Source: Bacteroidales bacterium
Lineage (GTDB): Bacteria > Bacteroidota > Bacteroidia > Bacteroidales > Paludibacteraceae
Assembly (NCBI GenBank): GCA_012519425.1
Contig: JAAYQF010000099.1
Coordinates: 1-52,711, forward strand
Reading direction: 5' to 3'
Length of the DNA: 52,711 bases
Shown here: piece by piece, positions 8,801 through 27,163 of the stretch
How the letters are laid out: every line of letters starts with the position of its first letter
Numbering within the stretch: position 1 is the first letter of the stretch
Notes under the pieces: generated by a model
Database searches by the model: none
Told to the model about the DNA's origin: nothing
Seen by the model: only the letters and a program-made list of their open reading frames with translations
Made by a program: the position numbers and the translations under genes

Positions 8801-9225
8801 CAGTTTTCCATGTTTCTTTAGGAAATGATGTGTTTGACGTATCTCGCAGAACAGACCTTCCGCCTGTAAATTTACCGTCTTATATGCTGAAACGTTGGAC
8901 GGGTCCCGGCTCATCCAACAGAATTCCCCGCCTTTCAAATGATTTATCTAACAACAATTGGCGTTCGTCCGATCTTTATGTTCATGATGGTTCGTTTCTA
9001 AGGTTAAGAAACTTACAAATAGGGTATTCAATTCCTGAAAATTTGGTAAAAAAAGTATTGCTGCAGAAAGTTAGATTTTATGTTAATGCCGAGAATTTAT
9101 TGACCATTACACGGTACCATGGCTTTGATCCGGAAATTTCATCGGGAGGAACTTCCTTAGGAGTTGACAGAGGAATTTATCCGCAGCCGAGAGTCTTTTC
9201 ATTTGGTGCTAATATTATTTTATAG
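5845..9225 (+). CDS. SusC/RagA-family TonB-dependent receptor with STN signalling domain
   Basis: A 1,126-residue outer-membrane importer. Order: signal peptide (about 1-24, ending SYAQ), STN domain (about 35-102), carboxypeptidase-regulatory-like beta-sandwich (about 114-184), then plug and 22-strand barrel from about 188 (MLLDEVIVVGYGLQKK, with GTINNSEPLYIVDGMPIG in the plug), ending in an aromatic-rich barrel strand. The STN domain marks it as a transducer that talks to the FecR/sigma pair just upstream. Start ATG is at 5845; a second ATG two codons later (5851) is equally plausible. SusD follows after 10 bases. By family, the SusCD complex imports oligosaccharides produced at the cell surface; the ligand is inferred only from the GH16 and GH20 neighbours. 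Confidence 0.95.
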   Translation: MIMEKTIRILLFLSLLFLPFTSYAQHQKVRFSGEKITLKAAFNLIEKQTGLSVACDSQAIDSQKTISSVSGEIPVDQLMTLLLDETDCTYTISGSRIIITQKKEDAPKVSLQKISGIISTNNGEPIIGASVVVNGTASGTITDVSGRFSLTVSPDAVLTVSYVGYKTQEIKVNRRTSLRIVLQEDKMLLDEVIVVGYGLQKKSVVTAAISSVKTEDLEKISATRIDNVLKGMVSGVNITQSSGQPGAGSKVRIRGIGTINNSEPLYIVDGMPIGGGIDYLNPQDISSVEILKDAASAAIYGSRAANGVILVTTKLGDKTRPKLEYSTSFGWQNPWKKRDVLNGREYAILMNEIQLNDGKSPIYLNPESFGKGIDWQDKVFNYNAPIVEHQVNFSGGSAKSSYYLSLSYLYHEGIVGGNLNRSNYERYTTRFNNQYIVWDIDERMLLRSLKVGTNISYSRILSRTIGTNSERGTPLGSALMMSPLMDVYAENPDEVFEQFPNAVTDFKGVPFTIVDSQFGITNPVARLHLPGDKDNSDKYVGNFWGEVELYKNLKFKSSFGVDMGFWGNDGYTMPYYLGAFHYTDQSSVWSSMYRSFTWLVENLFTYNLNIDDHQFNFLLGQSAQSSNSQGVGGISYDIRNPKQPYIDATDKASNERGAWGSPSAYHRLASYFGKIGYNYRERYIVEATLRRDGSSNFGRKNRWANFPSLSVGWTITNEEFMEDKMDFLSSAKLRASWGKNGNQSIGEFGYTSTIVGNINYILGMEGQNIIAPGSTPTAYSNPYLRWEESEQTNIGLDTYFFNGALSFTFDWFNKRTNGMLMTMALPQYIGNSRPIGNVGDMRNQGVEFDLKYRFRFNQFKFNVGANASYIKNTLIKLGNETGWANYDTALGGVGTFTRAENGQPFPFFYGMKTDGIFQTEQEVQDYVNKDGELLQPNAKPGDVRFVDTNKDGVVDEYDRVNIGNGMPPWTLGLNADMEWKGFDLSTVFHVSLGNDVFDVSRRTDLPPVNLPSYMLKRWTGPGSSNRIPRLSNDLSNNNWRSSDLYVHDGSFLRLRNLQIGYSIPENLVKKVLLQKVRFYVNAENLLTITRYHGFDPEISSGGTSLGVDRGIYPQPRVFSFGANIIL

Positions 9226-9235
9226 AAAGAAGATC

Positions 9236-10783
9236 ATGAAAAAACTAATTTTTATCCTAACGACAATTTTAGCTGTCTCGAGTTTTCAAAGTTGTACAGA
9301 TGACTTTTTGGAAGTTACTCCTACGACGCTGGAGCTTGCTGAGTTTTATTATAGCAATGAAGAAGAGATTACAAAAGCTCTAATGGCAGCCTATAATGTG
9401 TTGCAATGGCCCGATTTTGTGTTTTGGGAATACGGACCACTACCATTTATATCAGATATAATGTCAGATGATGTGCGTGTAGGTGGTGCACATGTAAACG
9501 ATATTCCTGTCTTTACTCAAATGAGATTTTTTAGGGCAAGTTCTGAATTTACACCTTCTGTTTTGTGGGTTGTATTTTACTCCGGTATTTATCGTACTAA
9601 TACGGTGATCAATAACATGGATAAAGTGCAAAACATCAGCTCAACCCGTAAAAATAGAATCTTAGCCGAAGCACATACTTTGCGTGCATACTATTATTTC
9701 TGGTTGTGGAAATTATGGGGAAATGTTCCTTATTACGATAAAAATCCGGAAGAAAACTTTTATGTTCCACAACTTTCTGCAGATGAGGTTTATAAGCGTA
9801 TTTTAAGTGATCTTGATTTTGCGATTCAAGATAACAAATTACCACTTACCGTTCCTAAAATGCAAAAAGGTAGAATAACCCAAGCAACTGCACAAATGCT
9901 AAAAGCTAATTTGGTGATGTATCAGAAAGATGAAGCTTTATATCCCGAAGTTCTGAATGATATGAGAGAAATCATACAGTCGGGTTTATACAGTTTGTAT
10001 CCTAATTTCGCAGATATTTGGGAAGATATTGGAGAATGGTGTTCTGAATCTATCTTTGAAGTTAACTATACGGATAATCCTAGTAGCAGAACTTGGGAAA
10101 ATGCCACAAGAGCAGGAGGAACAGTATATCCGACTCTGATAGGAATCAATGCACTGGTTAATTCTCCTCATTATGCCGGAGGCGGATATGGTTTTGAACC
10201 GGTAGAAAAGAGCTTATATGATTTATACGATGATGCAGATCAACGTAAAGATGGGGGAATATTAAATTTTGCAAAATACCAACAATCTTACCCTCAAGCT
10301 AGTTATGTGCCTCGTTATGACGACACCGGTTACTTTAACAGGAAGTATTTACCCAGATTAAATGGAAATGATAAGTTTGTTTCAGGTCCGGATGGTGGTG
10401 CTGATATCAATTATCGAAATAATTACCGAGTTTTCAGATATGCTGAGACACTTTTAATAGCCTCCGAACTTATTGTAAGAACCGGTGGAAATCAGGAAGA
10501 AGCTGATCTGTATTTAAATCAGGTCAGGGCAAGAGCATTTCAGGAAGATATAGATGACCCGGAATTTTCAACTAAAAAAAGAGTGGCTACATTAGATAAT
10601 TTATTGCTTGAAAATCGCTTGGAATTTGCTTGTGAAGGACACAGGTTCTGGGATTTGGTGCGATACGACAAGGCTGTTGAGGTCTTGGGTGACAGGGGTT
10701 ACACACCGAACAAAAAACACCTGCCAATCCCTCAATCGGAAATAGATCAGGCTAAAGGGACTTTAATACAAAATCCTTATTAA
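9236..10783 (+). CDS. SusD/RagB-family surface glycan-binding lipoprotein
   Basis: A 515-residue SusD-like lipoprotein that caps the upstream SusC and binds glycan. The lipobox SFQSC puts the lipidated cysteine at residue 20. The family hallmarks are an N-terminal TPR-like region (ILAEAHTLRAYYYFWLWKLWG) and the C-terminal LLENRLEFACEGHRFWDLVRY segment, ending LPIPQSEIDQ near the C-terminus. An in-frame TTG at 9164 would extend it into SusC, but the ATG at 9236 directly starts a lipoprotein signal peptide, so it is preferred. It is probably translated with SusC from one transcript. Confidence 0.95.
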   Translation: MKKLIFILTTILAVSSFQSCTDDFLEVTPTTLELAEFYYSNEEEITKALMAAYNVLQWPDFVFWEYGPLPFISDIMSDDVRVGGAHVNDIPVFTQMRFFRASSEFTPSVLWVVFYSGIYRTNTVINNMDKVQNISSTRKNRILAEAHTLRAYYYFWLWKLWGNVPYYDKNPEENFYVPQLSADEVYKRILSDLDFAIQDNKLPLTVPKMQKGRITQATAQMLKANLVMYQKDEALYPEVLNDMREIIQSGLYSLYPNFADIWEDIGEWCSESIFEVNYTDNPSSRTWENATRAGGTVYPTLIGINALVNSPHYAGGGYGFEPVEKSLYDLYDDADQRKDGGILNFAKYQQSYPQASYVPRYDDTGYFNRKYLPRLNGNDKFVSGPDGGADINYRNNYRVFRYAETLLIASELIVRTGGNQEEADLYLNQVRARAFQEDIDDPEFSTKKRVATLDNLLLENRLEFACEGHRFWDLVRYDKAVEVLGDRGYTPNKKHLPIPQSEIDQAKGTLIQNPY

Positions 10784-10812
10784 AAATATTAATAAACCTA
10801 CAACATTCTAAA

Positions 10813-11700
10813 ATGAAAAGAATAAACAACATACGAATAATAATTTTACTTTGTGCCGTTGCATTGGTTCAATCGTGCAAAGAACAACGATTTTCAATCG
10901 GTGACAGACCTTCCGTAGATCAATTTTCCTATTCCGTAAGTCCGGATCCGGAATCTCTTAGCACAATTCACTTTTCTTTCAACGGAGACCAATTGTCGCC
11001 ATTCTGGACCATAGAACAACCCAACGGGACTTATTTACGTTCCAGTGATAGAAATTTAACTATTCAATATATGTTGGCAGGTGAATATAAAGGGGTTATA
11101 CAGGCTTTTGGTAGTGGAGGATTAAGTGATTCGGTTTACTTTAACTTTACGGTACCGGAAAGTGATCCTATCGTGTATAAACTTACCGGTAAAACCAGTC
11201 AAAAGGTATGGGTATGGGACTATATGAAAGAAGGTCATTTAACCGGAATATGGTCTGATCCGGGAGGTGCATGGGAAGGAGTGTGGGCTTTAGTACCCAA
11301 CGAACTGAAAGATTATGAAATATATGATGATGAGTTAAGTTTTATTTCAAAAAACAACGAGTATAAATTGGATGCACACGGATTTATCTATGCAGACCCA
11401 AGTGTGTTAAAAACACTAGATCCCGCAAACTATCCGGATGGAGGTAAAGTAGGTGCTACAATTAAATACACACAACCGGAAGGTCAAAAATGGAGCATTC
11501 GAAGGGATGAAAAAGATAAGCTGTTTTTAAGTTTTTCAGAAGGAGCTTTTCCAAGTTATCCGGCTTCACCTGCCGCATTAGGTGCAGAATATGAGATTGT
11601 TGAATTGTCGGATGACTTGCTGCATCTTTTCTGGCAAGAGTTTACACTTGGTGAAATTGTGAGCTGGCATTATTATTTTGTTCCAAAACAAGCCAATTAA
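10813..11700 (+). CDS. PUL surface lipoprotein with PKD-like domain (probable SGBP, SusE position)
   Basis: A 295-residue lipoprotein: a short signal peptide ends in LVQSC (Cys22). Residues about 38-117 look like a PKD/Ig-type beta-sandwich (FSFNGDQLSPFWTIEQPNG, then FTVPES). The C-terminal half is rich in Trp and Tyr (VWVWDYM, WEGVWALVP), as expected of a glycan-binding surface, but I recognise no named family for it. Its place directly after SusD and before GH16 is where Bacteroidota PULs encode the second surface glycan-binding protein, and PKD-containing versions are known from laminarin-type PULs. No catalytic motif is visible. Function is inferred from position, lipobox and domain shape. 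Confidence 0.7.
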   Translation: MKRINNIRIIILLCAVALVQSCKEQRFSIGDRPSVDQFSYSVSPDPESLSTIHFSFNGDQLSPFWTIEQPNGTYLRSSDRNLTIQYMLAGEYKGVIQAFGSGGLSDSVYFNFTVPESDPIVYKLTGKTSQKVWVWDYMKEGHLTGIWSDPGGAWEGVWALVPNELKDYEIYDDELSFISKNNEYKLDAHGFIYADPSVLKTLDPANYPDGGKVGATIKYTQPEGQKWSIRRDEKDKLFLSFSEGAFPSYPASPAALGAEYEIVELSDDLLHLFWQEFTLGEIVSWHYYFVPKQAN

Positions 11701-11745
11701 TTTGTATAAAATGTAAGTTTAAAAACAATAAATTGATAATTTATT

Positions 11746-12651
11746 ATGAAGATACTTAAAAATTTCTTTTCACGAGGAACAACAATTCAATTTATGATTT
11801 TTTCTATCGGTGCCCTCTTGCTTTTATATGCTTGCATGCGGGAAGATCCGGCTTATTTTACTCATAAACCTGTTATAAGTCAAGATGTAGATACAGATGA
11901 ACTTGAATATCAATTGGTTTGGAGTGAAGAATTTAATGAGGGAAGAGATGCCAACGGAAAATGTGCTCTGCCGGGTGACAAATGGATGTTTGAGGTTGGC
12001 GGGCATGGATGGGGAAATGAGGAAGAACAATACTATGTAGATCGTGTGTTAGGGACTGATACGGTAGCAAAAATCAAAGATGGAGTTCTTATCATTTCGG
12101 CTATAAAATTAAACACTCCTTATGAAGGTAGAAAATATATTTCGGCACGAATGAACACGAAAGAATATTGGACATATGGACGTTTTGAAATGAGAGCGAA
12201 ATTACCTTCCGGAAGGGGTACGTGGCCCGCCTTCTGGATGCTCCCAAGAAATATGCAATCTGTCAGAGACGGTGAAATTGATATTATGGAGTATGTTGGA
12301 GCTGAGCCGGGCTTAGTTCATTTTTCAGCACATACGGGTGCTTATACTCCTGCAGTGGGAACCGGAAAGAATGCACGTATTATGGTTCCTGATTGTGAAA
12401 CAGAATTTCACGTGTATGCAGTGGAATGGACAGAGGATTATATAGCAGGATTTGTTGATGAAGAGAGATACTTTACCTTTATGAACGATCATCAGGGCAT
12501 TAAAGATACCTGGCCCTTTAATGTGCCTTTTAACTTAAAACTTAATATCGCCGTAGGTGGTTCCTGGGGAGGATATGATGGAATAGATGACACTATTTTT
12601 CCCGCTACTTATGAGATTGATTATGTGAGGGTATATCAAAGAATACCATAA
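11746..12651 (+). CDS. GH16 family endo-beta-glycanase lipoprotein
   Basis: A 301-residue secreted lipoprotein with a lipidation cysteine at residue 30 (LLLLYAC). The GH16 catalytic signature is intact: EIDIME at 177-182, giving nucleophile Glu177, Asp179 and acid/base Glu182. The extra Met makes it the beta-bulge type of laminarinases and related enzymes (GH16_3-like). Flanking family segments are GRFEMRAKLPSGRGTWPAFW (146-164) and the terminal YEIDYVRVYQ strand. Plausible substrates are beta-1,3- or mixed-linkage glucans, or poly-LacNAc O-glycans, because GH16_3 members acting on either are known. The GH20 neighbour keeps both open. Likely cell-surface and endo-acting, feeding SusCD. Confidence 0.93.
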   Translation: MKILKNFFSRGTTIQFMIFSIGALLLLYACMREDPAYFTHKPVISQDVDTDELEYQLVWSEEFNEGRDANGKCALPGDKWMFEVGGHGWGNEEEQYYVDRVLGTDTVAKIKDGVLIISAIKLNTPYEGRKYISARMNTKEYWTYGRFEMRAKLPSGRGTWPAFWMLPRNMQSVRDGEIDIMEYVGAEPGLVHFSAHTGAYTPAVGTGKNARIMVPDCETEFHVYAVEWTEDYIAGFVDEERYFTFMNDHQGIKDTWPFNVPFNLKLNIAVGGSWGGYDGIDDTIFPATYEIDYVRVYQRIP

Positions 12652-12662
12652 AAATTATTTCT

Positions 12663-15056
12663 ATGAGAAAGAAAATAGTACATTTTTTATCGTTGGTTTT
12701 TATCCTGTTTTTTTCTTCCTGTTCAACCAGGGAGGAGCCCTTACGGTTGGTGTGGAAAATTGAACCGGCTAATGAGCAAGGTTACCTGGAGACATTTTAT
12801 GTGATCAGCAATACCAACAAACCGGTGGAAAATAATTGGACAATTTATTTTTCACAACTGCCGCATTACTTTGAAGTGTCCTATCAGGAGGGAATATCCA
12901 TTGAACAAATCAGTGGTTCGTATTACAAAATAAATCAGACTCAAAAAGATGATTTAATTGAAAAAAAAGATTCGCTGAAAATTGTTTTATCCGTGCCTTA
13001 CGGTCCAAATTCCTGTTCTTTCTACCCTGAAAGTCCGTTTATTGTTTATCACGATAAAAACGGTTTAGATTCAGTGGTGGCAGATTTACCTTTGATCGTT
13101 GATGACAGTCGCAATCAAATCTGTCCGAGCAACTCAAGCATATATGATTTCAATTATAAATTGAATCCAAATATAGCTCTAAACAGTTCTGACTTAATTC
13201 CTTCCTTGAAAAAAGTTGATGTAAAACAGGGAGTTTGTAAAACAAAGAATAGTTTTAATGTGCTGCCGGATTCACATTTTATAAATGAGGCTGATCTGTT
13301 AAAACAATCGCTGATTGATAAAAAACATAAAGTTTCTTCAACAGGAAGTGGACATACAACCATCAAATTATTATACGACACGGATGAAACATACGTAAAC
13401 GAGGAGCACTACTTTTTAACTGTCAGCGATTCTTTAATTACAATCAAAGGTCAAACAGCGCACGCCATTTTCAATGGAATACAGAGTTTGCTGATCATGT
13501 TGGAACACTCCCCGGATTTGCCTTATATGAGCATTTCAGACTATCCGGATCTGTTGCACAGGGGTTTGATGATAGACCTTGCCAGAAACTTTGTTTCAAA
13601 GGAAAATCTGTTGAATCTTATCAATACTATTTCTTCTTATAAATTAAATGTACTGCATTTGCATTTAGCTGATGATGAGGGGTGGAGACTTGAAATCCCG
13701 GGACTGGAAGAACTGACCGAAATTGCTTCCAAAAGAGGCTACACTACGGATGAATCAACATGCTTATATCCTGCTTATGGCAGCGGATGGGATGTTCACA
13801 ACACACAAAACGCAGGAAATGGCTTCTATACCCGAAATGATTTTATTGAGATTTTACAATATGCAAAACAACGACATGTGAAGGTTATCCCTGAAATTGA
13901 TATGCCGGGTCATTCACGTGCAGCTATTAAGGCGATGAATGCCAGGTACAATAAGTTCATTGATACAGATCGTGTAAAAGCAGAGGAATATTTGTTGACT
14001 GATTTTGAAGATCGTTCGGTTTACAAATCGGCTCAAAATTATAACGACAATGTGCTTAATGCGGCATTGCCTTCCACCTATCGCTTCATGGAAAAGGTGA
14101 TTCATGAAGTAATATCGATTTATCAGGATGCGGAAGTTCCGCTTGATGTATTTCATATAGGTGGAGATGAGGTTCCTCGTGGGGCCTGGACAGATTCTCC
14201 GATTGCACAGGATTTTATGCAAAAGAACGGAATGAAATCCACCAAGGAGTTATCAGATTATTTTTATAAGAAATTAAATACATTTTTATCGGAAAAAGGT
14301 TTAATAATGGCCGGTTGGCAGGAAATAGCGCTAACCCCCGATCATAAGGTTAATCCTTTATTTAAAAACAAGAAGTTACAAGTTAACTGCTGGTACACTA
14401 CGCCGGAGATGGAAGATAATCTTGTTTTAGAATTGGCTCATGCCGGGCACAATATCATTCTATCCAATGTTACCAATTTGTATTTGGATTTGTCTTATAA
14501 TGACAGTTATAATGAACCCGGACATAGATGGGGAGGAACAGTCAATCAATTCACATCATTTGATTTTTTGCCCTATGGGGGACTTGATAAAAACCAAGCT
14601 GCCATAAAAGAAAACATCAAGGGAATTCAAGGTCAGTTATGGGCTGAAACGATCAGAAATTTTGAAATGACGGAATATCTGTTGTTTCCCAAGATTTTAG
14701 GCTTGGTAGAACGTGCCTGGAATGCCTCTCCATCGTGGGAAACGGATGATAATCTCTATTGCGGTGCTGTGTCAAAATTCAATAAGATAATCAATACAAA
14801 ATATTTACCTTATTTGATTTCGAAGCAAGTAAATGTCAGGATTGACCAGCCCGGTATAAAGATGATTGACGGTAAGATTTACATGAATTCCAATATAGAA
14901 CAATCGGAGATTCGGTACACTACCGATGGTTCCACACCAGATCAAAATTCATTGCTGTGGAGCAAGCCAATTTCTACAAACAATCTAAAACAAGTAAAAT
15001 CTAAAGTATTTTATCTGAACAAATCAAGCAGAACATCGGTTTTTGAGATTAAATGA
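12663..15056 (+). CDS. GH20 beta-N-acetylhexosaminidase, chitobiase-like lipoprotein
   Basis: A 797-residue exo-enzyme removing terminal beta-GlcNAc/GalNAc. Order: lipoprotein signal (FFSSC, Cys20), an N-terminal CHB_HEX-like carbohydrate-binding domain (about 26-150), the GH20b alpha/beta domain (about 165-295), the GH20 barrel (about 298-700) and a C-terminal chitobiase-C/Fn3-associated strand set (EIRYTTDGSTPD). The catalytic pair Asp502-Glu503 sits in HIGGDE, and IPEIDMPGHSRAA at 409-421 and HLHLADDEGWRLEI are the other hallmarks. The domain plan matches chitobiases rather than short GH20s. It starts 11 bases after GH16, so both share a transcript. Substrate beyond the beta-HexNAc end is not determined. 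Confidence 0.94.
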   Translation: MRKKIVHFLSLVFILFFSSCSTREEPLRLVWKIEPANEQGYLETFYVISNTNKPVENNWTIYFSQLPHYFEVSYQEGISIEQISGSYYKINQTQKDDLIEKKDSLKIVLSVPYGPNSCSFYPESPFIVYHDKNGLDSVVADLPLIVDDSRNQICPSNSSIYDFNYKLNPNIALNSSDLIPSLKKVDVKQGVCKTKNSFNVLPDSHFINEADLLKQSLIDKKHKVSSTGSGHTTIKLLYDTDETYVNEEHYFLTVSDSLITIKGQTAHAIFNGIQSLLIMLEHSPDLPYMSISDYPDLLHRGLMIDLARNFVSKENLLNLINTISSYKLNVLHLHLADDEGWRLEIPGLEELTEIASKRGYTTDESTCLYPAYGSGWDVHNTQNAGNGFYTRNDFIEILQYAKQRHVKVIPEIDMPGHSRAAIKAMNARYNKFIDTDRVKAEEYLLTDFEDRSVYKSAQNYNDNVLNAALPSTYRFMEKVIHEVISIYQDAEVPLDVFHIGGDEVPRGAWTDSPIAQDFMQKNGMKSTKELSDYFYKKLNTFLSEKGLIMAGWQEIALTPDHKVNPLFKNKKLQVNCWYTTPEMEDNLVLELAHAGHNIILSNVTNLYLDLSYNDSYNEPGHRWGGTVNQFTSFDFLPYGGLDKNQAAIKENIKGIQGQLWAETIRNFEMTEYLLFPKILGLVERAWNASPSWETDDNLYCGAVSKFNKIINTKYLPYLISKQVNVRIDQPGIKMIDGKIYMNSNIEQSEIRYTTDGSTPDQNSLLWSKPISTNNLKQVKSKVFYLNKSSRTSVFEIK

Positions 15057-16534: not shown

Positions 16535-18208
16535 ATGAAAAAAATCTTAATCCTTGAAGACAATATCGGTATTGCCCGATCGATTCAACTCGAATTGGAA
16601 AAATCCGGTTATAAGGCTTTTCCGGCAGACGCAATTCAAAAAGCTGACGATATTTTAGAAAATCAAACCATTGATCTGATGATTATTGGTTTTGAGCTGT
16701 TATCTGATGCTAATTCCTGTGATTGGATACAAAGTAGAAATTCGAAAAAGTTGTTGACACCTCCTTTTGTTGTTTCAACTGAACAGCTTAATGAGAAGAT
16801 TGCTTTGGAAATAAAGAAGATGGGCGCATCTGATTACCTGTTAAAGGGTTCAATGCTAATATCCTGCATGAATCATGTTGTCAACAGGGTTTTGAAAGAG
16901 ATTGAGCAAAAAGAAAAAATTACTTCGTCGCAGCGGGCATTGGAGGAAAGTGAAAAGAGATATCGTATGCTTTTTGAAAAGAATCCTGAACCCATGCTGA
17001 TAGTGAGCAAAGACTTTCGGTTTCTTGAAGTAAATGATGCAGCTCTAAAACATTACGGTTACTCAAGAAAAGAATTTTTATCTCTTACTATTGCAGATAT
17101 AAAACCTCAAGAAGATATTGAATCGATGTATGAAAGTGTCAGCCGGGCTTTCAATACAAAAAAGTTGACAAAAGCTATTTCACGTCATGTGAAGAAAAAT
17201 GGTGAGCTTATGATAACTGAAGTGACGCCGTCATTCATTGAATGGCAGGGGCAAATTGCCTCACATGTACTGGTCAATGACATTACAGAAAAAACCAGGA
17301 CACAAGAAATGCTGCAACAAAAAAGAATTCGACTCCGCAAGGTCTTGGAAGAAAGTACCCGCTTTATTCAAGTTCAAACAGGAAAAATAGATTTTGTTAA
17401 AATTACGGATATAATGATGGAAATATCCGGTGCTAAGGTAGTTGCTTTCAGTCGATTTATAGATAATGGGGAAACATATATTACTAAAGGTTTCAGCGGC
17501 TTGGGTAATTTTGCCAAAAACTCGGAGAATATTTTGGGATTCAACCTTTTAGAGAAAGTATGGAAAGCAGACTTAACATTTAGTTCTACGCTTAAAAACG
17601 GGGCAACTCTGCACTTGAAAAATATCAAAGAGCTTAAAGATAGAATATTCTCAACCACTATCATTCAAATTATTACTGATTCTTTTAATGTAGGAGAAAT
17701 AGTTTTAGTTCCCGTTATGCATAAAGAACGATTGATGGCGGTTTTTACTTTAATTTTCAAAAGAGGAGATGAGTTTTCGGATGCTGAAATTGTGGAGATC
17801 TTCTCCAATCAAGTTGCCTTATACATTGCGCGCGTAAGAGCGGAAAGAGCCGTGTTGAAAAGTCAGGAAAAATATTGCTACTTGTTTGAAAACAATCCAC
17901 AACCCATGATGATTGTTGATGTGGAATCCCTCTTTGTCTTAGAAGTCAACGCCGCCGCCTTAGAGCTGTATGGTTATACCAAGGAAGAATTTCTAAATTT
18001 AAAACTTTTAGATCTGCGATCAGCAGAAGAAGTTTCTGGACTAATAGACTCATTGTCAGAGTTTAAGAGAGATAAAGAAATGAGCATGACAACCATCCAT
18101 CAAACAAAAAACAATGATTCTTACCAGGTAGAGTTATCTTCTTCTCCCATTATTTTTGAAGATAAAAAAGCCCGTCATTTGTTGATCGTCAGGCACACAA
18201 AACTGTAA
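16535..18208 (+). CDS. Orphan pseudo-receiver / PAS / GAF / PAS protein without output domain
   Basis: A 557-residue cytoplasmic protein with no membrane segments. Residues 1-120 resemble a response-regulator receiver (ILILEDN with acidic pair 8-9, late Lys in SDYLLKGS), but the phosphoacceptor position in DLMIIGFELL is Gly52 instead of Asp. PAS 1 covers about 138-255 (EKRYRMLFEKNPEPMLIV), a GAF-like domain about 275-435, and PAS 2 about 445-555 (CYLFENNPQPMMIVD). It then stops; no histidine kinase, GGDEF or DNA-binding domain follows and the next gene is convergent 12 bases away. It could be a sensory adaptor or a kinase that lost its C-terminus. Frame and codon use look intact. Confidence 0.8.
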   Translation: MKKILILEDNIGIARSIQLELEKSGYKAFPADAIQKADDILENQTIDLMIIGFELLSDANSCDWIQSRNSKKLLTPPFVVSTEQLNEKIALEIKKMGASDYLLKGSMLISCMNHVVNRVLKEIEQKEKITSSQRALEESEKRYRMLFEKNPEPMLIVSKDFRFLEVNDAALKHYGYSRKEFLSLTIADIKPQEDIESMYESVSRAFNTKKLTKAISRHVKKNGELMITEVTPSFIEWQGQIASHVLVNDITEKTRTQEMLQQKRIRLRKVLEESTRFIQVQTGKIDFVKITDIMMEISGAKVVAFSRFIDNGETYITKGFSGLGNFAKNSENILGFNLLEKVWKADLTFSSTLKNGATLHLKNIKELKDRIFSTTIIQIITDSFNVGEIVLVPVMHKERLMAVFTLIFKRGDEFSDAEIVEIFSNQVALYIARVRAERAVLKSQEKYCYLFENNPQPMMIVDVESLFVLEVNAAALELYGYTKEEFLNLKLLDLRSAEEVSGLIDSLSEFKRDKEMSMTTIHQTKNNDSYQVELSSSPIIFEDKKARHLLIVRHTKL

Positions 18209-18220
18209 AAATAGTTTGAT

Positions 18221-20203
18221 TCAAAACTTGTATTCCACAAAAGCTTCAATGGCTTCGTAAGACGCCAATCCCAACTGCTGGTATAGTGCTGCAGTAGCCC
18301 TGTTTCTATCTTCTGAACGTTGCCAGAAAAGGCGTTCATCTTTGCCCATAAAAGGCGCACTTTCCATTTGCGACTGGTGTCTTAGGATAGATTTTCTTTT
18401 ATTCATCAGCTGTTCAGGACTCATGGGAACTGCCATTTCGATATGGTCGATTTCCCATTCTGCCCAGGCTCCGCGATACATCCACACGCGACATTCGTCC
18501 ATCAATCCTTCTTTGTTTAACTCGTCTATAGCGGCTAAAACTGCATTCAAACAAACCCGGTGTGTACCATGGGGGTCTGCCAGGTCACCGGCAACAAATA
18601 TCTGATGTGGCCTGATTTCCCGAATAAGGTCCATTACGATGTGTACATCTTTTTCTGAGAGGTCGTTTTTCTTAACCTTTCCCGTTTCGTAAAAAGGCAA
18701 ATCGAGAAAATGTATATTTTCCGGTTTCACTCCGATAAACCTGCAGGCAGAACGAGCCTCTTCACGCCTGATCTGTCCTTTGACAAACAAAATATCCTTG
18801 TAAACGGACGGTGTCATCTCTTGTTGATTTAATAAAACAGCCAGTACTTCATCAATTTTTCCGTCAATCTCGATTTCATGATCATAGTATTTATTAGATA
18901 TGCTTTTCATCAAAGAAATATACCTGATCGCTTCTTCGTCTCCCACAGCAATATTTCCGGAAGTTTGATAGGCTATGTGTACTATATGTCCCTGATCTAC
19001 CAGTCTTTGAAAAGTACCTCCCATAGAGATTACATCGTCGTCAGGGTGTGGACTGAAAATCAATGACCGTTTAGGGTGAGGAAAAGCGCGCTCAGGACGA
19101 TTAGTGTCATCAGCATTAGGCTTGCCACCTGGCCATCCTGTGATGGTGTGTTGTAAATCGTTGAAAATTTGGATGTTTACATCATATGCCGAACCGTAGT
19201 TGACCAATAATTCATCTAAACCATGCAGGTTGTAATCCTTATTGGTTAATTTTAATATTGGTTTGCCTGTTTTTTCGCACAACCAAACAATGGCACGACG
19301 AATGAGTTTGTTGGTCCAATCGCACGAACCCACCAGCCAGGGCTGACTAACACGGGTTAAATACTGAGCCGCATCAATGTCCGTCACCACTTTTGCGTTT
19401 TTATGAAATTGTAATAGAGAGGCCGGCACATTATCATCTGCTTTTAATTCAATAACTTTTTTCAGAATAGCAGCTTTGTGCTCTCCCCATGCTGACAGAG
19501 TCAGCTTGCGAGCTTCCATCAGAGAAGAAAGTCCAATGGTAAAACCATAGGAAGGGATATCATCCACAGTGTTGTAAAATTGCTTTAAATCTGCTCTTGA
19601 CTGCTCGTCAAGCAACATCAACCTGGTTTTGGAACCGATATTTGAACCGGGTTCATTATATGCCAAATTGCCCACCAGGCCAACACTTACAAGTACATAA
19701 TCCAATCCGCCGTGCTCAATGATCAGCTGGTCATATGCCTGACAGAAAGCATGTATGTTTTGTTCATCATGTTCAGGGATCAAGGTGTAGAAGTTCTCAA
19801 AATTAAAATCAACCTTATTGAGCAAATTTTCTTTGATAATTCTGGTGTTATTGTGTTGATAATGGTGAGTTAAGGGGTAAAATTCCGTAATATTGAAAAC
19901 AACTACGTTTTTAAAACTCAAACCTTCTTGCTGATGCATTTTTACAAGTTTGGCATATACCCCTAATGGAGAAGAACCACCCGAAAGTCCCAATACGCAG
20001 GTTTGATTTTGCTCCTGTTTTTTTCTAATGATGGTGGCTATTTCCCTGGCAATGTAAGCCGAACCCTCTACTTCAGAATCAAATATTTCCGTATCAATTT
20101 TTTCAAATTGTGTTTGTCTGATTTTTTCAATGGCGTTCGTAGCCCGATAATAACGTTCGGGAATTCTTTCTAAAGTGATTTTAGAGCTCAAATCTAGTTG
20201 CAT
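18221..20203 (-). CDS. Glucosamine-6-phosphate deaminase-like / LmbE-PIG-L deacetylase fusion
   Basis: A 660-residue two-domain protein. Residues about 40-290 are NagB-like (GLSGGSSPLG at 72-81), but three of the four E. coli NagB catalytic residues are replaced: Asp72 by Thr106 (FNITEF), Asp141 by Val177 and His143 by Asn179 (VGLVGNLAYNEP); only Glu148 (Glu184) remains. Residues about 378-640 form an LmbE/PIG-L zinc deacetylase domain with an intact metal motif PHPDDD (His386, Asp388, Asp389) and the distal DPHGTH (543-548). Fusions of this plan are common in Bacteroidota and are usually annotated simply as NagB. An N-acetyl-sugar or sugar-phosphate deacetylase is more likely than a deaminase. 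The kinase-like gene lies 15 bases upstream, so they form an operon. Confidence 0.88.
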   Translation of the reverse strand: MQLDLSSKITLERIPERYYRATNAIEKIRQTQFEKIDTEIFDSEVEGSAYIAREIATIIRKKQEQNQTCVLGLSGGSSPLGVYAKLVKMHQQEGLSFKNVVVFNITEFYPLTHHYQHNNTRIIKENLLNKVDFNFENFYTLIPEHDEQNIHAFCQAYDQLIIEHGGLDYVLVSVGLVGNLAYNEPGSNIGSKTRLMLLDEQSRADLKQFYNTVDDIPSYGFTIGLSSLMEARKLTLSAWGEHKAAILKKVIELKADDNVPASLLQFHKNAKVVTDIDAAQYLTRVSQPWLVGSCDWTNKLIRRAIVWLCEKTGKPILKLTNKDYNLHGLDELLVNYGSAYDVNIQIFNDLQHTITGWPGGKPNADDTNRPERAFPHPKRSLIFSPHPDDDVISMGGTFQRLVDQGHIVHIAYQTSGNIAVGDEEAIRYISLMKSISNKYYDHEIEIDGKIDEVLAVLLNQQEMTPSVYKDILFVKGQIRREEARSACRFIGVKPENIHFLDLPFYETGKVKKNDLSEKDVHIVMDLIREIRPHQIFVAGDLADPHGTHRVCLNAVLAAIDELNKEGLMDECRVWMYRGAWAEWEIDHIEMAVPMSPEQLMNKRKSILRHQSQMESAPFMGKDERLFWQRSEDRNRATAALYQQLGLASYEAIEAFVEYKF

Positions 20204-20218
20204 GGCTAAATTGAATTA

Positions 20219-21304
20219 TTAAGATTGTTTCGAATATTTTTTTACAATTTCTTGCATCTGTTTAAATTTCTTTTCCTGTTGTTCCAATAAACGGAACTGT
20301 GCCAGTGTTCTTTGCCAGTTATGTTCCGAATGTTCGATTTTATAGTAAGTATCACCATTCAAATAATCGGTAAAGAAGCGTACAGTTTGCATGTATGTTA
20401 ACATTTTTGCCCCTAAAGCCAAATATTCAAGTTCTACATCGGTTAAAAAAGTTGCCATCTCAAGGTATCCTTTGGTATAAGCTTCATAAATTTCGAGATT
20501 GACATCAATGTTATCAAGTTGTGGGTCATCTTCGGCACCTGTATTTGCCGCTGTTCGCATGAAATCGCCAAAATCAGATAACACCGTACTGATCATCATG
20601 GTATCTAAATCAACGATACAGCATGGTTCATCTTTCTCATTGAAAAGTAAGTTGTTAATTTTGGTATCGCAATGATTTATTCTGCCCGGCAACTTACCGG
20701 CTCTGAATAGTCGTTGAGGCAAACACATTTCATCCGCTCTTTTCATCAGTTCATCTACCATCCAACTTGTTTTTTCTACTCTGTTGACCAGATCGTCTTT
20801 TACTGCATCTTTCAATTGCTGCACCCTGAATTCAACATTGTGAAAATCAGGAATGCTGTCAACTAATTGATTAGTAGGTATATCTGCTATCATGCAATGA
20901 AAATTACCGTAGGCTTTTCCCGCCTCGTAAGCAAGCTCAGGTGTAATAGCCTCATAGCTGTGCGTGTTTTTGATATGGACATAAACTCTCCAGTAATTAC
21001 CCTCATCATCCTGATAAAAGAGCTTATTATCTTTGGTTTCAATTAACTGCAAAACCTTTTGTTCAATATTAGTTACACCGGCATCTTTATATTTTTTTCT
21101 CAGGTGATCAGTCACAATTTTGATGTTGTTTTGTAAGCCTTGAACATCCTTGAAAATGTGGTGATTGATCTTTTGTAAAAAATATGATTCATCTTCCGGA
21201 TTTTTACCTGAAGCAATAAAAGAATCATTAATATGACCTATTTTTAGGGGTTTGATGTCAACAATTGTTGATTTGATTTTGAAATATTGTAAAATTTTTT
21301 CCAT
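20219..21304 (-). CDS. APH-fold sugar kinase, N-acetylhexosamine 1-kinase-like
   Basis: A 361-residue cytoplasmic kinase of the aminoglycoside-phosphotransferase/choline-kinase fold. The catalytic loop reads INHCDTKINNLLF (Asp213, Asn218) and the metal-binding motif IVDLDTMM (Asp232, Asp234); the N-terminal lobe carries GHINDSFI. Length and motifs fit N-acetylhexosamine 1-kinase (NahK), which phosphorylates GlcNAc/GalNAc at C1. Some Bacteroidota relatives carry the label mucin desulfatase, which the kinase motifs do not support. The NagB-LmbE fusion follows after 15 bases, so both probably act on the same amino sugar. A putative -7 element lies just upstream at 21333-21340. Substrate is inferred. 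Confidence 0.75.
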   Translation of the reverse strand: MEKILQYFKIKSTIVDIKPLKIGHINDSFIASGKNPEDESYFLQKINHHIFKDVQGLQNNIKIVTDHLRKKYKDAGVTNIEQKVLQLIETKDNKLFYQDDEGNYWRVYVHIKNTHSYEAITPELAYEAGKAYGNFHCMIADIPTNQLVDSIPDFHNVEFRVQQLKDAVKDDLVNRVEKTSWMVDELMKRADEMCLPQRLFRAGKLPGRINHCDTKINNLLFNEKDEPCCIVDLDTMMISTVLSDFGDFMRTAANTGAEDDPQLDNIDVNLEIYEAYTKGYLEMATFLTDVELEYLALGAKMLTYMQTVRFFTDYLNGDTYYKIEHSEHNWQRTLAQFRLLEQQEKKFKQMQEIVKKYSKQS

Positions 21305-21383: not shown

Positions 21384-21815
21384 TTATTTCAATCTGTATG
21401 CATATACGTTTGTTTCACGCTGTACAAAGCCTAAGCGTTGGTATAATTTATTGGCCGCAATTCTTTGTGGTCTGGAAGTAAGCATGATGGTTTTGGCATC
21501 TCGTGTTTGTGCAAACTGAATAGCATGTAAAAGCAATTGTTTTCCAAATCCTTTTCCTCTTTGAGAGATGTCTACAACCACATCTTCAATCCATAATTTT
21601 TTACCGGTCGGTACGTCATATTCAACCAGGGTCAACATCCCTACAATATTATCATCCTCCAATACTGCAGCGAACAAATGAGAATTTTCCGAAGCAAGCA
21701 TGTTCTTAAGGTAATCTTCTGATGGAAGGGCAACACTGTCATCAAGCTGAGGTAACAGATCAATAATGGCCTGATATGTTTTTTGATCGATCGAGGTAAT
21801 TTGCCGGATGGTCAT
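21384..21815 (-). CDS. GNAT-family N-acetyltransferase
   Basis: A 143-residue acetyl-CoA-dependent acetyltransferase. The GNAT core is clear: beta-4 strand VGMLTLVEYDV and LWIEDVVVDISQRGKGFGKQLL, in which RGKGFG is the Q/R-x-x-G-x-G/A pyrophosphate-binding loop, then AANKLYQRLGFVQRETNVY at the C-terminus. It is full length for a single-domain GNAT. The acceptor is unknown; it lies upstream of amino-sugar genes, but a separate -7 box before the kinase means it need not belong to that operon. Its leader contains a degenerate 15-base tandem repeat (21831-21874). Confidence 0.88.
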   Translation of the reverse strand: MTIRQITSIDQKTYQAIIDLLPQLDDSVALPSEDYLKNMLASENSHLFAAVLEDDNIVGMLTLVEYDVPTGKKLWIEDVVVDISQRGKGFGKQLLLHAIQFAQTRDAKTIMLTSRPQRIAANKLYQRLGFVQRETNVYAYRLK

Positions 21816-21933: not shown

Positions 21934-21965
21934 TTTGTATTCAACCACAAAATAATGTATTTTTG
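21934..21965 (+). promoter_or_regulatory. Bacteroidota-type promoter of nagB (TTTG-N20-TATTTTTG)
   Basis: TTTG at 21934-21937 and TATTTTTG at 21958-21965 are separated by exactly 20 bases, matching the primary-sigma consensus TTTG-N19-21-TAnnTTTG. The -7 element is 48 bases before the nagB ATG. Confidence 0.75.
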
Positions 21966-22013: not shown

Positions 22014-22808
22014 ATGAGACTCATCATTCAGAAAGATTACGAAAAAATTTCGGAGTGGACGGCAAATTATATCGCTGAGAAAATCAACAAAGCAGATTCA
22101 TCAACAGATAGCCGTTTTGTACTGGGCTTACCGACAGGTTCAACACCTTTAGGCACTTATAAAAACCTGATTGAGATGTATGAAGCAGGAAAAGTGTCTT
22201 TTCAAAATGTAGTGACATTCAATATGGACGAATATGTGGGTATTCCGCAAAACCACAAGCAAAGCTACTATACTTTTATGTGGAAGAATTTTTTCAGCAA
22301 GGTAGATGTCCTGCCTGAGCGCGTCAACATCCTGAACGGAAATGCTCCTGATTTGGAAGCTGAGTGTGAATCTTATGAAAACCGCATCAAATCCTACGGT
22401 GGCATTGATCTTTTCTTGGGTGGAGTAGGGGCCGATGGTCACATAGCCTTTAACGAACCGGGATCTTCACTGACTTCCCGCACCAGAATGAAAATCCTGA
22501 CACAAGATACCATCATAGCTAATTCCCGTTTCTTTGATAATGATATCAATAAAGTACCGAAGAATGCTTTGACTGTTGGGGTAGGTACAATTTGCGATGC
22601 TAAGGAGGTTGTAATTATAGTGAGCGGTCATGGCAAAGCCCGTGCTTTGCGACATGCTGTAGAAGGGTCTGTCAATCAGATGTGGACCATTAGCGCCTTA
22701 CAGTTACATCCTAAAGCTATTATCGTGTGTGACGAAGCTGCTTGTGTGGAATTGAAAGTTGGAACCTACAACTATTTCAAGGACATTGAAAAAAATGAGA
22801 TTTTGTAA
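22014..22808 (+). CDS. nagB: Glucosamine-6-phosphate deaminase
   Basis: A 264-residue NagB that converts glucosamine-6-phosphate to fructose-6-phosphate and ammonia in the cytoplasm. It aligns with E. coli NagB almost end to end: [12 protein letters not shown] at the phosphate site, FNMDEYVG with the general base Asp72, and [17 protein letters not shown] with the Asp141, His143 and Glu148 equivalents all present, then SRFFDND and LTVGVGT. In contrast to the fusion protein at 18221-20203 every catalytic residue is kept, so this is the working deaminase. It has its own well-formed promoter and a terminator. It would take the amino sugar released by GH20 into glycolysis. Confidence 0.97.
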
Positions 22809-23107: not shown

Positions 23108-26100
23108 ATGAAACATAAATTTTATTCATTTCTTCTATGTAGTTTAATGTTGTTGGTTGTAGGACCAGGCATGGCGCAGACCAACACCTCTCACGAAAAC
23201 GCTGAATTAATCGAATTGGATCAGGAGGTAACGTACTCGCATGCATCATCTCCGGCTGCACAAACTCTTTATTTTAAATTTAACGTTGAAGCGGGAGAAA
23301 TCTATGAAATTACAGGTACATACAATGATTTTTATTACAGTGATCTCACGGTTTATGATACCACTGAAAATTCTCCTGTTACGACAACATGTGTGTCGAC
23401 AAATGTTATGGAGTCTTACAGACTGACTGCAACTAAAACGGGAACTCTTCATATAAAGCGTTCAATAAAATACTATACTGAAAACCCTATAACAATGACT
23501 GTGAGTCAGATCACTGATGCGCGCGTTTGTGCTAATGCCGTTAAAGTAAATGTAGGTCAGGAAGTATCCTACAACCACAAAACTGATTACGAACTGTGGT
23601 GGAAGGTAGAGTTAGATGCAAACAGTACCTATTTGATTAATTTTAATAACGAAAATGAAAATGGTGCAACATTATACATTTATAGTGATTGTGATGAGGA
23701 AACGGCTTTAGCAGAGTCTTCTTATGGTATAATTAATGTTTCTACCACAACAGAAGGGTATTATTATATACGTTCTTATACGTATAATCTATACTCTGAA
23801 GAAAGTAATTTCAATACCTTTACAATCAGTAAGTTCGCAAACGATAATAACACAAGCTGTTCCTCTGCCAAACAGATTGCGGTGAACGGGGATGTGTTTA
23901 CTTCCTTTAGTTATGGGGATCTGCTTTGGTACAAGGTAGATGTTGAAGGTGGAAAAGTTTATGAGTTGGACGGCCGTGGCACCGATCCTTATTCATGGAC
24001 GGTAAGCGTGAATGTTTATGCCTCCTGTGAGGCAACAACTGCTATTGCAGGAATAAGCCAATGCCCCGGCGTTGTTTATTTAGCTCCGGAATATGACACT
24101 ACCTATTACATCAGATGGAGAAATGGGGGTAATACTTCATTAGACCCTTTCATTTGGGGCTTTAATGAAGTTACGGATAACCGCACTTGTCAATTAGCCT
24201 CTCCAATCACGCTCAATGAGAACATTACCGTACCTACTGTTGCCGACGGTGCAAGAGACTCTTATTGGTACTCATTAGAAGTGCAGGCTGGTAATTTTTA
24301 TGAAATAGATTTTAACGAAGCGTATAGTACCAGTTGGGATAAGGATGAAATGTTAATATATAGCGACTGTAGTCAAAGAGATTTTCTGAGTCGTTTTACT
24401 AAATCCAAGCATTTGCTTGCACCCGAAAGTAGTGGCATTCTGTATCTTAAGATTGAGCGTACAGCATTTTCCAACTCCCAGCTTGTATGGAAAGTGAGTC
24501 AGGTGAGCGCCGGCGATAACCGCCTGTGTGCATACGCACAAAATATTACCCTTGGCGCTGATATACAAACTGATCATACGCCCGGTTATATTGACCTGTG
24601 GTACAAAGTACCGCTTGAAGGCGGTAAGGTGTATGAGATAGATGCCTCGGAAGCAAGCACAAACCTGTATTATTATATAGGCGAGGAGGTATGCGACACT
24701 TATCTAAATTCAAATATCCTCTATATTCAACGCGGAACCAAAAATTTAATTGATCCGGAAGTTGATGTGGTGTATTATTTCCATACCATCGATCAGAGTG
24801 GAACTCCGAGTCACAACTTTACCTGGAAAATTAGTGAGACAGAGGGCGATAATCGCCTGTGTTCTTATGCTACGCTCATAAATCAAGGGGCAGCATTCAC
24901 CGTCGACCATACTGACAACGATACTTATTGGTTTAAGTTGAACGTTACTGCCAATGGTTCGTATTCGGTTGAATTACCTGAAACACTTGGTGAGTACGTA
25001 CGTGTGTTTGACGAATGTGGAGGAGAAATGAAAAAAAGTGTACATGGAGAACCCTTCTCTTTCGTGGCGGAACATACCGGGTTATATTACCTGCATTTCA
25101 TCAACAGAAGTTCAAAACCGACGTTTGACTGCACTGTTACCGAAGTGATCGATAATCGTTCTTGTCTGTATCCTGCAAACGTATCGATAGATCAACCGGT
25201 AAATGCCAATTATGTGCAGGGTGGTTTGTGGTATTTGATTCAGCTTGACGCAAATGATATATATGAATTTGACTTTACAGATTCGGGCCTGATCGGTAGC
25301 ATCTATACTTCTTGTGGTGAAAACTTACCACTTGCACAAGGCGAATCTGAAAAAATGCTGTTTAAGCCCACCACTACAGGAGCTTATCTTGTGCATACAG
25401 GTACGTATTATGCGGATAATTCAATGAATTGGTCCTTTGCAAAGAAAGAATCCGGTGACAGCCGATTATGTGAATATGCTGTGGAAGTATCTGTGGAGGA
25501 TACAACAACAACCTATTTTACCGATTCTCACCGAACTCACTGGTATAAAGTTGAAGTACAGGCAGATAAGTATTACGAGATAGGCAGTTGTGACAAAGAG
25601 TCGAATGCACTTGGAATAAATATATATGCCGGTTGCGAAGAACAAGTTGCCCTGGCATCTGTAGTAGGAACTAAAGTGTTATCTGCTGAAACGGATGGAA
25701 CGTTATATCTGAAAGTAGTGTTTTCTCCTCATACCAATGTCACTTCTGCACAATGGTATATCAAGGAAGTAACTCCTGATGGACGTGTTTGTAGCCTCGG
25801 ACTTGAAGCGTCGATTGGTGAGGAAATAACTACATATAATTATCACGCAACAGCCGAATTCGATATGTGGGGAGACGGTAATGATTATCCACCATACGTT
25901 ACAACACAAGGTACCTGGTACAACTTATACATAGATGAAGCCGGAGTTTACGAAATCCGCTTGCAAGACTGGGATTTTTACGAAGAACTCGGGGAAGGAG
26001 GGTATTATGGACCTTTCTACTATGCACACGTGTTTACAACTTGTGATTTGTTCTCGTCTTACTTAGGGTCGGCAGGACACTACTTTAACACAGGTAGATT

Positions 26101-27163
26101 TAGTTTTGAAGCTGAAGAAAATACCGTTTTTTATATTCTGATGGAGCAATATGAACCAAGCCCTGAGCCTTTTACCTGGGAAATCGTCAAAATAGGTGAA
26201 TCGACAGCCCCAAAAGGCATAATCGGAGTATCCCTGGCAAATGAAGAAGGTGATTTTATCAATGTTTCTACGGCAAATGTACGTGTTTATCGTAAAGATA
26301 ATGGTACCTTGTTACCTGCCGGCATAGCGACCTGGACTGATTGGAAAGGCATTAGTATGTATGAAACCAATGAAATAAGTGTGGGGGCCTACCTCATTTA
26401 TGTGGATGGTGTTCCGGGATATCTTGCAGAATGGTACAACCATGCAGGTGTATGGGAAGATGCAACCGAAGTTATACTTACAGAAAACAATGCTCGTGTA
26501 GAAATACGCCCAAAAGCTATTCCGGCTGATATTTCAAGTGGAAGTGTAAGTATTTCAGGTTCTGTTTTCGATGCGGCAGCAGCACAACCAGGAGGATCAG
26601 CAGCAATAGAAGGAGTGAGTATTAGTATTTATCGCGAGAAATCGTCATCACAACAAAGTCAGGCACAACGTTCCAAGGTATTTTATCGGATAGTAAATCC
26701 CGTGGTTTGGGAATTGGTAGCTACCATTAAGACGGATGCTAACGGGCAGTATCAAATCAATCAACTTCCTCAAGGTCGTTACAAGATAATAGTAGATTTA
26801 CCTGGTTTCTCCACGGAAGACGGAGGTGTCGTGATTGATGCTGTAGAAGGTGAAAGCTATAGCAATAATAACTTTGAGGCGGACACAGTCACCATGACAG
26901 TTTCCCGACAAGTTACGGGCTTGCGTGGACCCGCTCTACAGAACATCAGCTTGTATCCCAATCCTTTTGATAAAGAACTTGTTATTGTTCACGCTGAAGA
27001 TTGCTGGTTGCAAGTGTTCAACCTGGAAGGTGTTCAAGTATTTACTCAGCAACTGACACAAACACGGGAAGCTGTTCGTCTCGATGAACTTCCTTCCGGT
27101 ATCTACTTTTTCCGTTTGGAAAAAGATGGACGAACGGCATCATTTAAAGCGATTAAGAAGTAA
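23108..27163 (+). CDS. Large nine-repeat surface protein with T9SS sorting tail
   Basis: A 1,351-residue exported protein: signal peptide about 1-24 (GPGMAQ), then nine related modules of about 100-115 residues starting near 25, 139, 249, 359, 471, 582, 683, 785 and 892. Most modules open with D-x-R-x-C and share a later WYKV..G..YEID core, resembling a bacterial pre-peptidase C-terminal-type beta jellyroll. A CnaB/SdrD-B-like domain (about 1130-1250, KTDANGQYQINQLPQGRYKI) follows, then a type A T9SS tail (SLYPNPFDKELVI to GIYFFRLEKDG). It lies alone between two terminators. No catalytic domain is recognised; an adhesin, S-layer-like or glycan-binding role is possible but unproved. Confidence 0.85.
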   Translation: MKHKFYSFLLCSLMLLVVGPGMAQTNTSHENAELIELDQEVTYSHASSPAAQTLYFKFNVEAGEIYEITGTYNDFYYSDLTVYDTTENSPVTTTCVSTNVMESYRLTATKTGTLHIKRSIKYYTENPITMTVSQITDARVCANAVKVNVGQEVSYNHKTDYELWWKVELDANSTYLINFNNENENGATLYIYSDCDEETALAESSYGIINVSTTTEGYYYIRSYTYNLYSEESNFNTFTISKFANDNNTSCSSAKQIAVNGDVFTSFSYGDLLWYKVDVEGGKVYELDGRGTDPYSWTVSVNVYASCEATTAIAGISQCPGVVYLAPEYDTTYYIRWRNGGNTSLDPFIWGFNEVTDNRTCQLASPITLNENITVPTVADGARDSYWYSLEVQAGNFYEIDFNEAYSTSWDKDEMLIYSDCSQRDFLSRFTKSKHLLAPESSGILYLKIERTAFSNSQLVWKVSQVSAGDNRLCAYAQNITLGADIQTDHTPGYIDLWYKVPLEGGKVYEIDASEASTNLYYYIGEEVCDTYLNSNILYIQRGTKNLIDPEVDVVYYFHTIDQSGTPSHNFTWKISETEGDNRLCSYATLINQGAAFTVDHTDNDTYWFKLNVTANGSYSVELPETLGEYVRVFDECGGEMKKSVHGEPFSFVAEHTGLYYLHFINRSSKPTFDCTVTEVIDNRSCLYPANVSIDQPVNANYVQGGLWYLIQLDANDIYEFDFTDSGLIGSIYTSCGENLPLAQGESEKMLFKPTTTGAYLVHTGTYYADNSMNWSFAKKESGDSRLCEYAVEVSVEDTTTTYFTDSHRTHWYKVEVQADKYYEIGSCDKESNALGINIYAGCEEQVALASVVGTKVLSAETDGTLYLKVVFSPHTNVTSAQWYIKEVTPDGRVCSLGLEASIGEEITTYNYHATAEFDMWGDGNDYPPYVTTQGTWYNLYIDEAGVYEIRLQDWDFYEELGEGGYYGPFYYAHVFTTCDLFSSYLGSAGHYFNTGRFSFEAEENTVFYILMEQYEPSPEPFTWEIVKIGESTAPKGIIGVSLANEEGDFINVSTANVRVYRKDNGTLLPAGIATWTDWKGISMYETNEISVGAYLIYVDGVPGYLAEWYNHAGVWEDATEVILTENNARVEIRPKAIPADISSGSVSISGSVFDAAAAQPGGSAAIEGVSISIYREKSSSQQSQAQRSKVFYRIVNPVVWELVATIKTDANGQYQINQLPQGRYKIIVDLPGFSTEDGGVVIDAVEGESYSNNNFEADTVTMTVSRQVTGLRGPALQNISLYPNPFDKELVIVHAEDCWLQVFNLEGVQVFTQQLTQTREAVRLDELPSGIYFFRLEKDGRTASFKAIKK

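Follow-up and report, generated by a model that had tools for sequence, protein, structure and literature searches.

The question raised by this locus is what a NagB-LmbE fusion protein may do when its NagB half no longer has the catalytic residues of a glucosamine-6-phosphate deaminase and its LmbE half keeps the metal motifs of a deacetylase. The window, by which we mean the whole stretch of 52,711 nucleotides analysed here, comes from a member of Bacteroidales, and its minus-strand ORF at 18221-20203 encodes a 660-aa fusion of this kind, which we call the eroded type. The features of the gene are as follows.

18221-20203, minus strand: NagB-LmbE fusion of the PRK02122 family, eroded type (NF002557, PF02585, PF01182)
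19340-20098, minus strand: NagB-fold half, residues 36-288, without equivalents of Asp72 and His143 (AlphaFold2 model, site table)
19886-19888, minus strand: codon of Thr106, at the site of E. coli NagB Asp72 (alignment)
19673-19675, minus strand: codon of Val177, at the site of Asp141 (alignment)
19667-19669, minus strand: codon of Asn179, at the site of His143 (alignment)
19652-19654, minus strand: codon of Glu184, at the site of Glu148 (alignment)
19079-19339, minus strand: linker, residues 289-375, with higher conservation in the eroded than in the intact class
18224-19078, minus strand: LmbE/PIG-L deacetylase half, residues 376-660 (PF02585, model matches)
19034-19051, minus strand: PHPDDD metal motif, residues 385-390, present in 93 of 93 eroded fusions
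18560-18577, minus strand: DPHGTH motif, residues 543-548, present in 93 of 93 eroded fusions

Profile searches place the protein in an already known family. It matches PRK02122/NF002557 of NCBIfam in full length (residues 10-660, 948 bits against a cut-off of 384), and Pfam finds PF01182 Glucosamine_iso at residues 48-267 and PF02585 PIG-L at residues 381-559 (80.4 bits against a cut-off of 28.2), while the cut-off of the NagB equivalog TIGR00502 is missed (168.5 vs 236.9 bits). The family model mixes intact and eroded members, the window protein falling in the eroded clade. The original prediction had named the four residues at the NagB sites exactly as our alignment to E. coli NagB gives them, and the two LmbE motifs that it named are present. 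It had also said that such fusions are normally annotated as glucosamine-6-phosphate deaminase, which is right in part, but the name given to NF002557 in NCBIfam is 'glucosamine-6-phosphate deaminase-like' and not deaminase.

The AlphaFold2 model of the window fusion, built with 61 sequences, has a mean pLDDT of 76.9 and a pTM of 0.59, with residues 578-638 poorly predicted. Its NagB half is matched to 2bkv of B. subtilis with Z 36.3 and rmsd 1.4 over 242 aligned residues, and to 1dea with Z 35.5, so that the predicted fold shared with NagB (Z around 36) covers residues 36-288; unlike NagB, the window fusion has lost Tyr85 and Thr41 as well as Asp72 and His143. Further matches of the same half are the CggR, DeoR and SorC effector domains (Z around 14-15), which bind sugar phosphates without catalysis, although these proteins are transcription regulators with no deacetylase. 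The LmbE half of the model matches MshB, diacetylchitobiose deacetylase and BshB with Z around 14. With the LmbE/PIG-L deacetylases the protein shares the Pfam PIG-L domain, the HPDD motif and the second His motif; the usual motif of these enzymes is HPDDE, and the window fusion has PHPDDD. It differs from them in being fused to NagB and in its probable substrate, a phosphorylated GlcNAc.

How general the erosion is can be seen in 178 distinct full-length fusions, 15 of 193 full-length matches having been dropped as duplicates. The two classes are defined by residue 143, intact fusions having His143 and eroded ones lacking it. On the whole, His143 is present in 85 fusions and absent in 93; since 80 of the loci were retrieved using the window protein as query, these class frequencies are not population frequencies, and the genome samples below are fairer. 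The roles of Lys160 (allosteric), Glu148 and His143 in E. coli NagB follow the passages of PMC4008608 used here. Among the 85 intact fusions, Asp72 is found in 83, Glu148 in 84, and Thr, Ser or Asn at site 141 in 84. Among the 93 eroded ones, site 143 is Asn in 90 and Ala, Ser or Gln once each, and site 72 is Tyr in 37, Ser in 20, Thr in 14, Phe in 14, Ala in 4, Gly in 2 and Asn in one, with Asp72 kept in a single case (L191). Site 141 carries V, A, K, S, I, L, T and others, Tyr85 is found in none and Thr41 in two, while Glu148 is kept in 60, the window included. Gly42, Glu73 and Asn147 are retained in all 93, Arg158 in 92, Lys208 in 89 and Arg172 in 24. In the LmbE half, PHPDDD, DPHGTH and YRGAW are each present in 93 of 93, and several positions switch with the class, such as 572, 575, 614, 617 and 625. 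With TIGR00502, the fusion-sized matches listed, in a list that stops at 257 bits, score 257-291 bits, the class being assigned for part of them.

Loss of His143 in 93 of 178 fusions, with the same Asn in 90 of the 93, shows that this is no chance event or oddity of a single genome. The claim that the catalytic residues are lost stands for these 93 fusions, but not for the family as a whole, in which 85 keep His143. Fixation of Thr/Val/Asn, which the original prediction proposed to check, is not found: sites 72 and 141 are variable and Asn143 alone is nearly fixed, and the triad is rejected as a signature of the eroded class. Asp141 is rejected as a diagnostic site too, being replaced in nearly all intact fusions and a poor marker because B. 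subtilis NagB (2bkv) has Asn there; Asp72 and His143 are good markers. The notion of an E. coli-type allostery by GlcNAc-6-P in the NagB half is unsupported, the Lys160 site being mostly I, V or M in both classes and the Thr161 site L, M or V in the eroded class.

Other Bacteroidales carry a second family of NagB-LmbE-like fusions, about 780 aa long (L184, L185, L186 and L187). It keeps GIGPDGH, has HHDD for HPDD and carries PDTH as the second motif, and L186 falls below the cut-offs of PRK02122 (182 vs 384 bits) and Pfam PIG-L. L184 is counted within the 85 intact fusions and is omitted from the tree, the half-identity comparison and the neighbourhood counts. Besides, three genomes (G206, G285 and G202; L144-L151) have three full-length fusions each, site 141 being Thr or Asn; part of these fusions adjoin GH20 and part adjoin NagP, which may reflect a split of substrates.

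The history of the erosion was traced with a tree built from the LmbE half only, and hence blind to the NagB sites, with representatives including 23 eroded ones. Of these, 22, the window included, form one clade (SH-aLRT 89), to which the intact L201/G310 is sister (SH-aLRT 99), and the clade is nested inside intact members, as is expected of a pseudoenzyme that descends from an intact ancestor. The eroded L191/G303 is placed apart, and a single loss for all 23 is rejected (one-clade test, p 0.00135). Two further cases spare His143: in family f38 Asp72 is changed to Ala, Ser or Asn in all seven genomes (on the tree only L179 represents f38, among the intact rows, and the residue of G246 is read from a fusion split over two contigs), and in G437, which groups with the intact L113, Asp72 is changed to Met. 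G303, G437 and all seven f38 genomes carry a stand-alone NagB. The erosion, then, is derived: in one Bacteroidales clade the residues of an intact ancestor were lost, and in at least three other lineages Asp72 or His143 eroded separately. Moreover, the NagB half evolves faster once eroded: at an LmbE identity of 65-75%, NagB-half identity is 47% in eroded pairs (3334 pairs) vs 69% in intact pairs (310 pairs). The linker in the same bin shows 82% identity in eroded pairs vs 64% in intact pairs.

The surroundings of the gene in the window include the following features.

20219-21304, minus strand: NahK-like N-acetylhexosamine 1-kinase, upstream of the fusion with a gap of 15 bp (PDB 4ocu, 4wh1 and 4ocj, E around 5e-56)
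21384-21815, minus strand: GNAT acetyltransferase at the head of the NahK-fusion gene run (profile matches)
21934-21965, plus strand: putative promoter of the Bacteroidota type, TTTG-N20-TATTTTTG, before nagB, read by eye
22014-22808, plus strand: canonical stand-alone NagB, oriented divergently to the GNAT-NahK-fusion run (TIGR00502, 421 bits vs 236.9)

The stand-alone NagB has D72, D141, H143 and E148 and reads TDYDHERK at the key sites; it lies 1.8 kb from the start of the fusion, much as the original prediction had placed it. The NahK-like gene adjoins the fusion in several close relatives as well. A GNAT acetylase stands here beside a deacetylase, an arrangement seen among loci L031-L110 in the closest relative (L031) only, and as a conserved fusion partner the GNAT gene was dropped on this count of one locus. 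Elsewhere in the window, 16535-18208, convergent with the fusion, encodes a response-regulator receiver followed by PAS domains, with no kinase or output domain matched in the profile search, and 23108-27163 encodes a 1351-aa protein, repetitive by eye, with a T9SS C-terminal sorting domain. At 5845-15056 a SusC/SusD-like pair, a GH16 gene and a GH20 gene come in succession and look like a polysaccharide utilisation locus.

The relation between erosion and a separate NagB was examined in an order sample of 159 Bacteroidales genomes, among which 36 have a fusion over the cut-off (19 eroded and 17 intact), a stand-alone NagB being a NagB-sized match of at least 215 bits. Among the matches listed, a stand-alone NagB is found in 18 of the 19 eroded genomes vs 4 of the 17 intact ones (Fisher 1.5e-5, uncorrected for kinship); G437, with Met at site 72, is counted as intact here, and moving it to the eroded class gives 19 of 20 vs 3 of 16. 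The exception is G385, a 1.2 Mb genome with an eroded fusion (L138/L203) and no other NagB among the matches listed; it counts against the preferred reading given below, and its deacetylase may have a part in salvaging cell-wall material. Presence of a separate NagB does not lead to the loss without exception, such a strict rule being rejected by G008, G026, G038 and G100 having an intact fusion together with a stand-alone NagB.

Neighbours were counted in loci of at least 7.5 kb, 70 eroded and 43 intact, with MurK called from PDB matches including chains titled MurNAc kinase, and NagP, ROK kinase and MurQ called from Pfam and NCBIfam. Within 500 bp of the fusion, NagB is found in 29 of the 70 eroded vs none of the 43 intact loci, ROK kinase in 12 vs 3, MurK in 10 vs 1, NahK in 6 vs none, GH20 in 1 vs 5 and NagP in none vs 3. 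MurQ lies within 3 kb in 10 eroded and no intact loci, and 10 eroded loci have MurK together with MurQ within 3 kb, a setting that would supply GlcNAc-6-P. In the order sample, MurQ (E <= 1e-30) occurs in 18 of the 36 fusion genomes vs 13 of the 123 others (p 1.3e-6), these 31 genomes including 23 that pass the family cut-off and two with fragments (G353 and G382). NahK-like genes (at least 175 bits) occur in 28 of 36 vs 34 of 123 (p 1.2e-7). The neighbours MurK, MurQ, NahK, ROK kinase, GH20 and NagP point to the use of GlcNAc and MurNAc.

On this evidence, the loss of deaminase activity in the NagB half, the core of the original prediction, is well supported by sequence, for the residues are lost throughout a clade, similar losses are repeated separately, a stand-alone NagB is nearly always present and the NagB half evolves faster. 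Our preferred reading, with a probability of about 0.52, is that the eroded fusion is a single-activity N-acetyl-hexosamine-phosphate deacetylase descended from an ancestor with a catalytic NagB half, the substrate probably being GlcNAc-6-P and the deamination being left to NagB. We infer the activity and its substrate as follows: the LmbE half, a one-metal hydrolase, would take the acetyl group off, most likely from GlcNAc-6-P to give GlcN-6-P, and the separate NagB next door would convert GlcN-6-P into fructose-6-P and ammonia. That the LmbE half is probably a working deacetylase is supported by one thing, its invariant metal motifs. The NagB half, without the Asp72 base and His143, would not deaminate, and would be kept as a folded domain, probably still binding a sugar phosphate or holding the protein together. 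In the ancestor, we infer, the LmbE half would have deacetylated and the NagB half deaminated, the latter function being given up where a separate NagB was at hand; this account, with both functions in the ancestor, is the most economical one. A bolder form of it, that PRK02122 is the one-chain enzyme of Bacteroidota from GlcNAc-6-P to Fru-6-P doing the work of NagA and NagB, with the deaminase switched off at least four times in lineages that have a separate NagB and the dead half turned into a sensor of sugar phosphates controlling the deacetylase, is rather doubtful.

Under the preferred reading the fusion would do the reaction of NagA (TIGR00221), which is an amidohydrolase, of a family other than LmbE, and would be its non-orthologous counterpart. 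The phyletic patterns, however, show a general scarcity of NagA with and without the fusion and not a replacement. Among the matches listed, NagA over the cut-off occurs in 5 of 36 fusion genomes vs 7 of 123 others in the order sample (p 0.14); for the phylum sample the counts are 24 of 121 vs 19 of 175, so that NagA is commoner there with the fusion (p 0.04). NagA is thus rarer with the fusion in neither sample, the two do not exclude each other, and replacement as a phyletic pattern is rejected. Again among the matches listed, no NagA over the cut-off is found in 31 of the 36 and 97 of the 121 fusion genomes; weaker ones, scoring 151-224 bits, turn up in G353 and, within the phylum sample, in six genomes with the fusion. 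Among the MurQ genomes, NagA is found in 3 of 18 with the fusion vs 3 of 13 without, and 10 of the 31 lack both the fusion and an over-cut-off NagA, so that other deacetylases or incomplete bins must exist. The fusion as a stand-in for NagA is therefore a candidate that rests on gene context and domain logic and not on the phyletic pattern. The clearest single case is G310, where an intact fusion lies 77 bp from MurK and MurQ is present, with nothing matching NagA at better than E 5e-5 and no further NagB among the matches listed. As for a bacillithiol deacetylase (BshB), this role is rejected for the order sample: BshC (E <= 1e-20) is found in none of the 159 Bacteroidales genomes, the window genome included, with 3 of 14 control genomes positive, and its absence leaves such a role not indicated.

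For the window genome the case for GlcNAc-6-P is weaker than for the group. It has a NagA of 306 bits (G000:C51; L193:6001-7957), directly beside a 271-aa NagB-like gene that scores 128 bits vs the cut-off of 236.9; MurQ was not found in it in the order-sample search, and its fusion is coupled to NahK. These points make GlcNAc-1-P a real alternative, in which the LmbE half would act on the GlcNAc-1-P made by the neighbouring NahK to give GlcN-1-P, and phosphoglucosamine mutase would convert this to GlcN-6-P, to be used by NagB or in building the cell wall. Such a route agrees with the same-strand NahK gene only 15 bp upstream, with its adjacency in eroded loci and none of the intact ones, with the enrichment of NahK-like genes in fusion genomes, and with a NagA that could already take care of the 6-phosphate. 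But the adjacency of NahK is mainly seen in close relatives, and NagB (29), ROK kinase (12) and MurK (10 of 70) lie beside the fusion more often and agree with 6-phosphates; we hold the 1-phosphate, mutase step included, to be unlikely.

The remaining alternatives concern the NagB half itself. It may be a sensor of GlcN-6-P, GlcNAc-6-P or Fru-6-P that switches the LmbE half or hands the substrate over, a tentative idea that is compatible with the deacetylase reading and to which the original proposal of a domain that binds sugar phosphates or regulates, and presents the substrate, comes close; the latter is consistent with the sequences and the predicted structure. The fold together with K208, G42, E73, N147 and R158 is kept while the base and the His are lost, the effector domains of CggR, DeoR and SorC are matched by the model, and conservation of the linker is higher in the eroded class; yet the kept residues may serve folding alone, Arg172 is left in 24 of 93 only, the Lys160 site is mostly I, V or M in both classes, and the half evolves fast. 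This fast evolution and the repeated loss of catalytic residues would suit a structural remnant serving to hold together the LmbE half or an oligomer, although Asn143 in 90 and K208 in 89 of 93 show more conservation than a bare scaffold would call for, and we regard a mere remnant as somewhat unlikely. It is highly improbable that the half still deaminates through new residues: the newly near-fixed Asn143 and the Glu148 kept in 60 of 93 might hint at it, but seven different residues besides Asp occur at site 72, none of the 93 keeps Tyr85 and 91 of them have lost Thr41, and a stand-alone NagB accompanies the fusion in nearly every case.

In the open-licence PMC literature we found no paper on the NagB-LmbE fusion as such and no assay of any member of the family; the family is already known, and our searches of this literature found neither the eroded subclass nor the proposed deacetylase role described. 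One report, which counts against the preferred reading, concerns F. johnsoniae, where, in the passages of PMC5127042 used here, deletion of the nagB of the chitin locus (Fjoh_4557) has no effect on chitin use, its protein could not be expressed, and the genome has three further nagB-like genes and a predicted NagA. Fjoh_4557 may itself be a PRK02122 fusion, as suggested by the fusion-GH20 neighbourhoods in other genomes.

Since most sampled Bacteroidota, whether or not they carry the fusion, have no NagA over the cut-off among the matches listed, amino-sugar use often lacks an assigned enzyme for its deacetylation step, and the LmbE half is a concrete candidate for this step in the genomes with the fusion. 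The label 'glucosamine-6-phosphate deaminase' is probably wrong for the eroded fusions, and these members should not carry a deaminase annotation. At the same time, the fusions offer a natural series for the study of pseudoenzyme evolution, in which catalytic loss is repeated beside an intact partner domain, with the intact relative in G310 for comparison.
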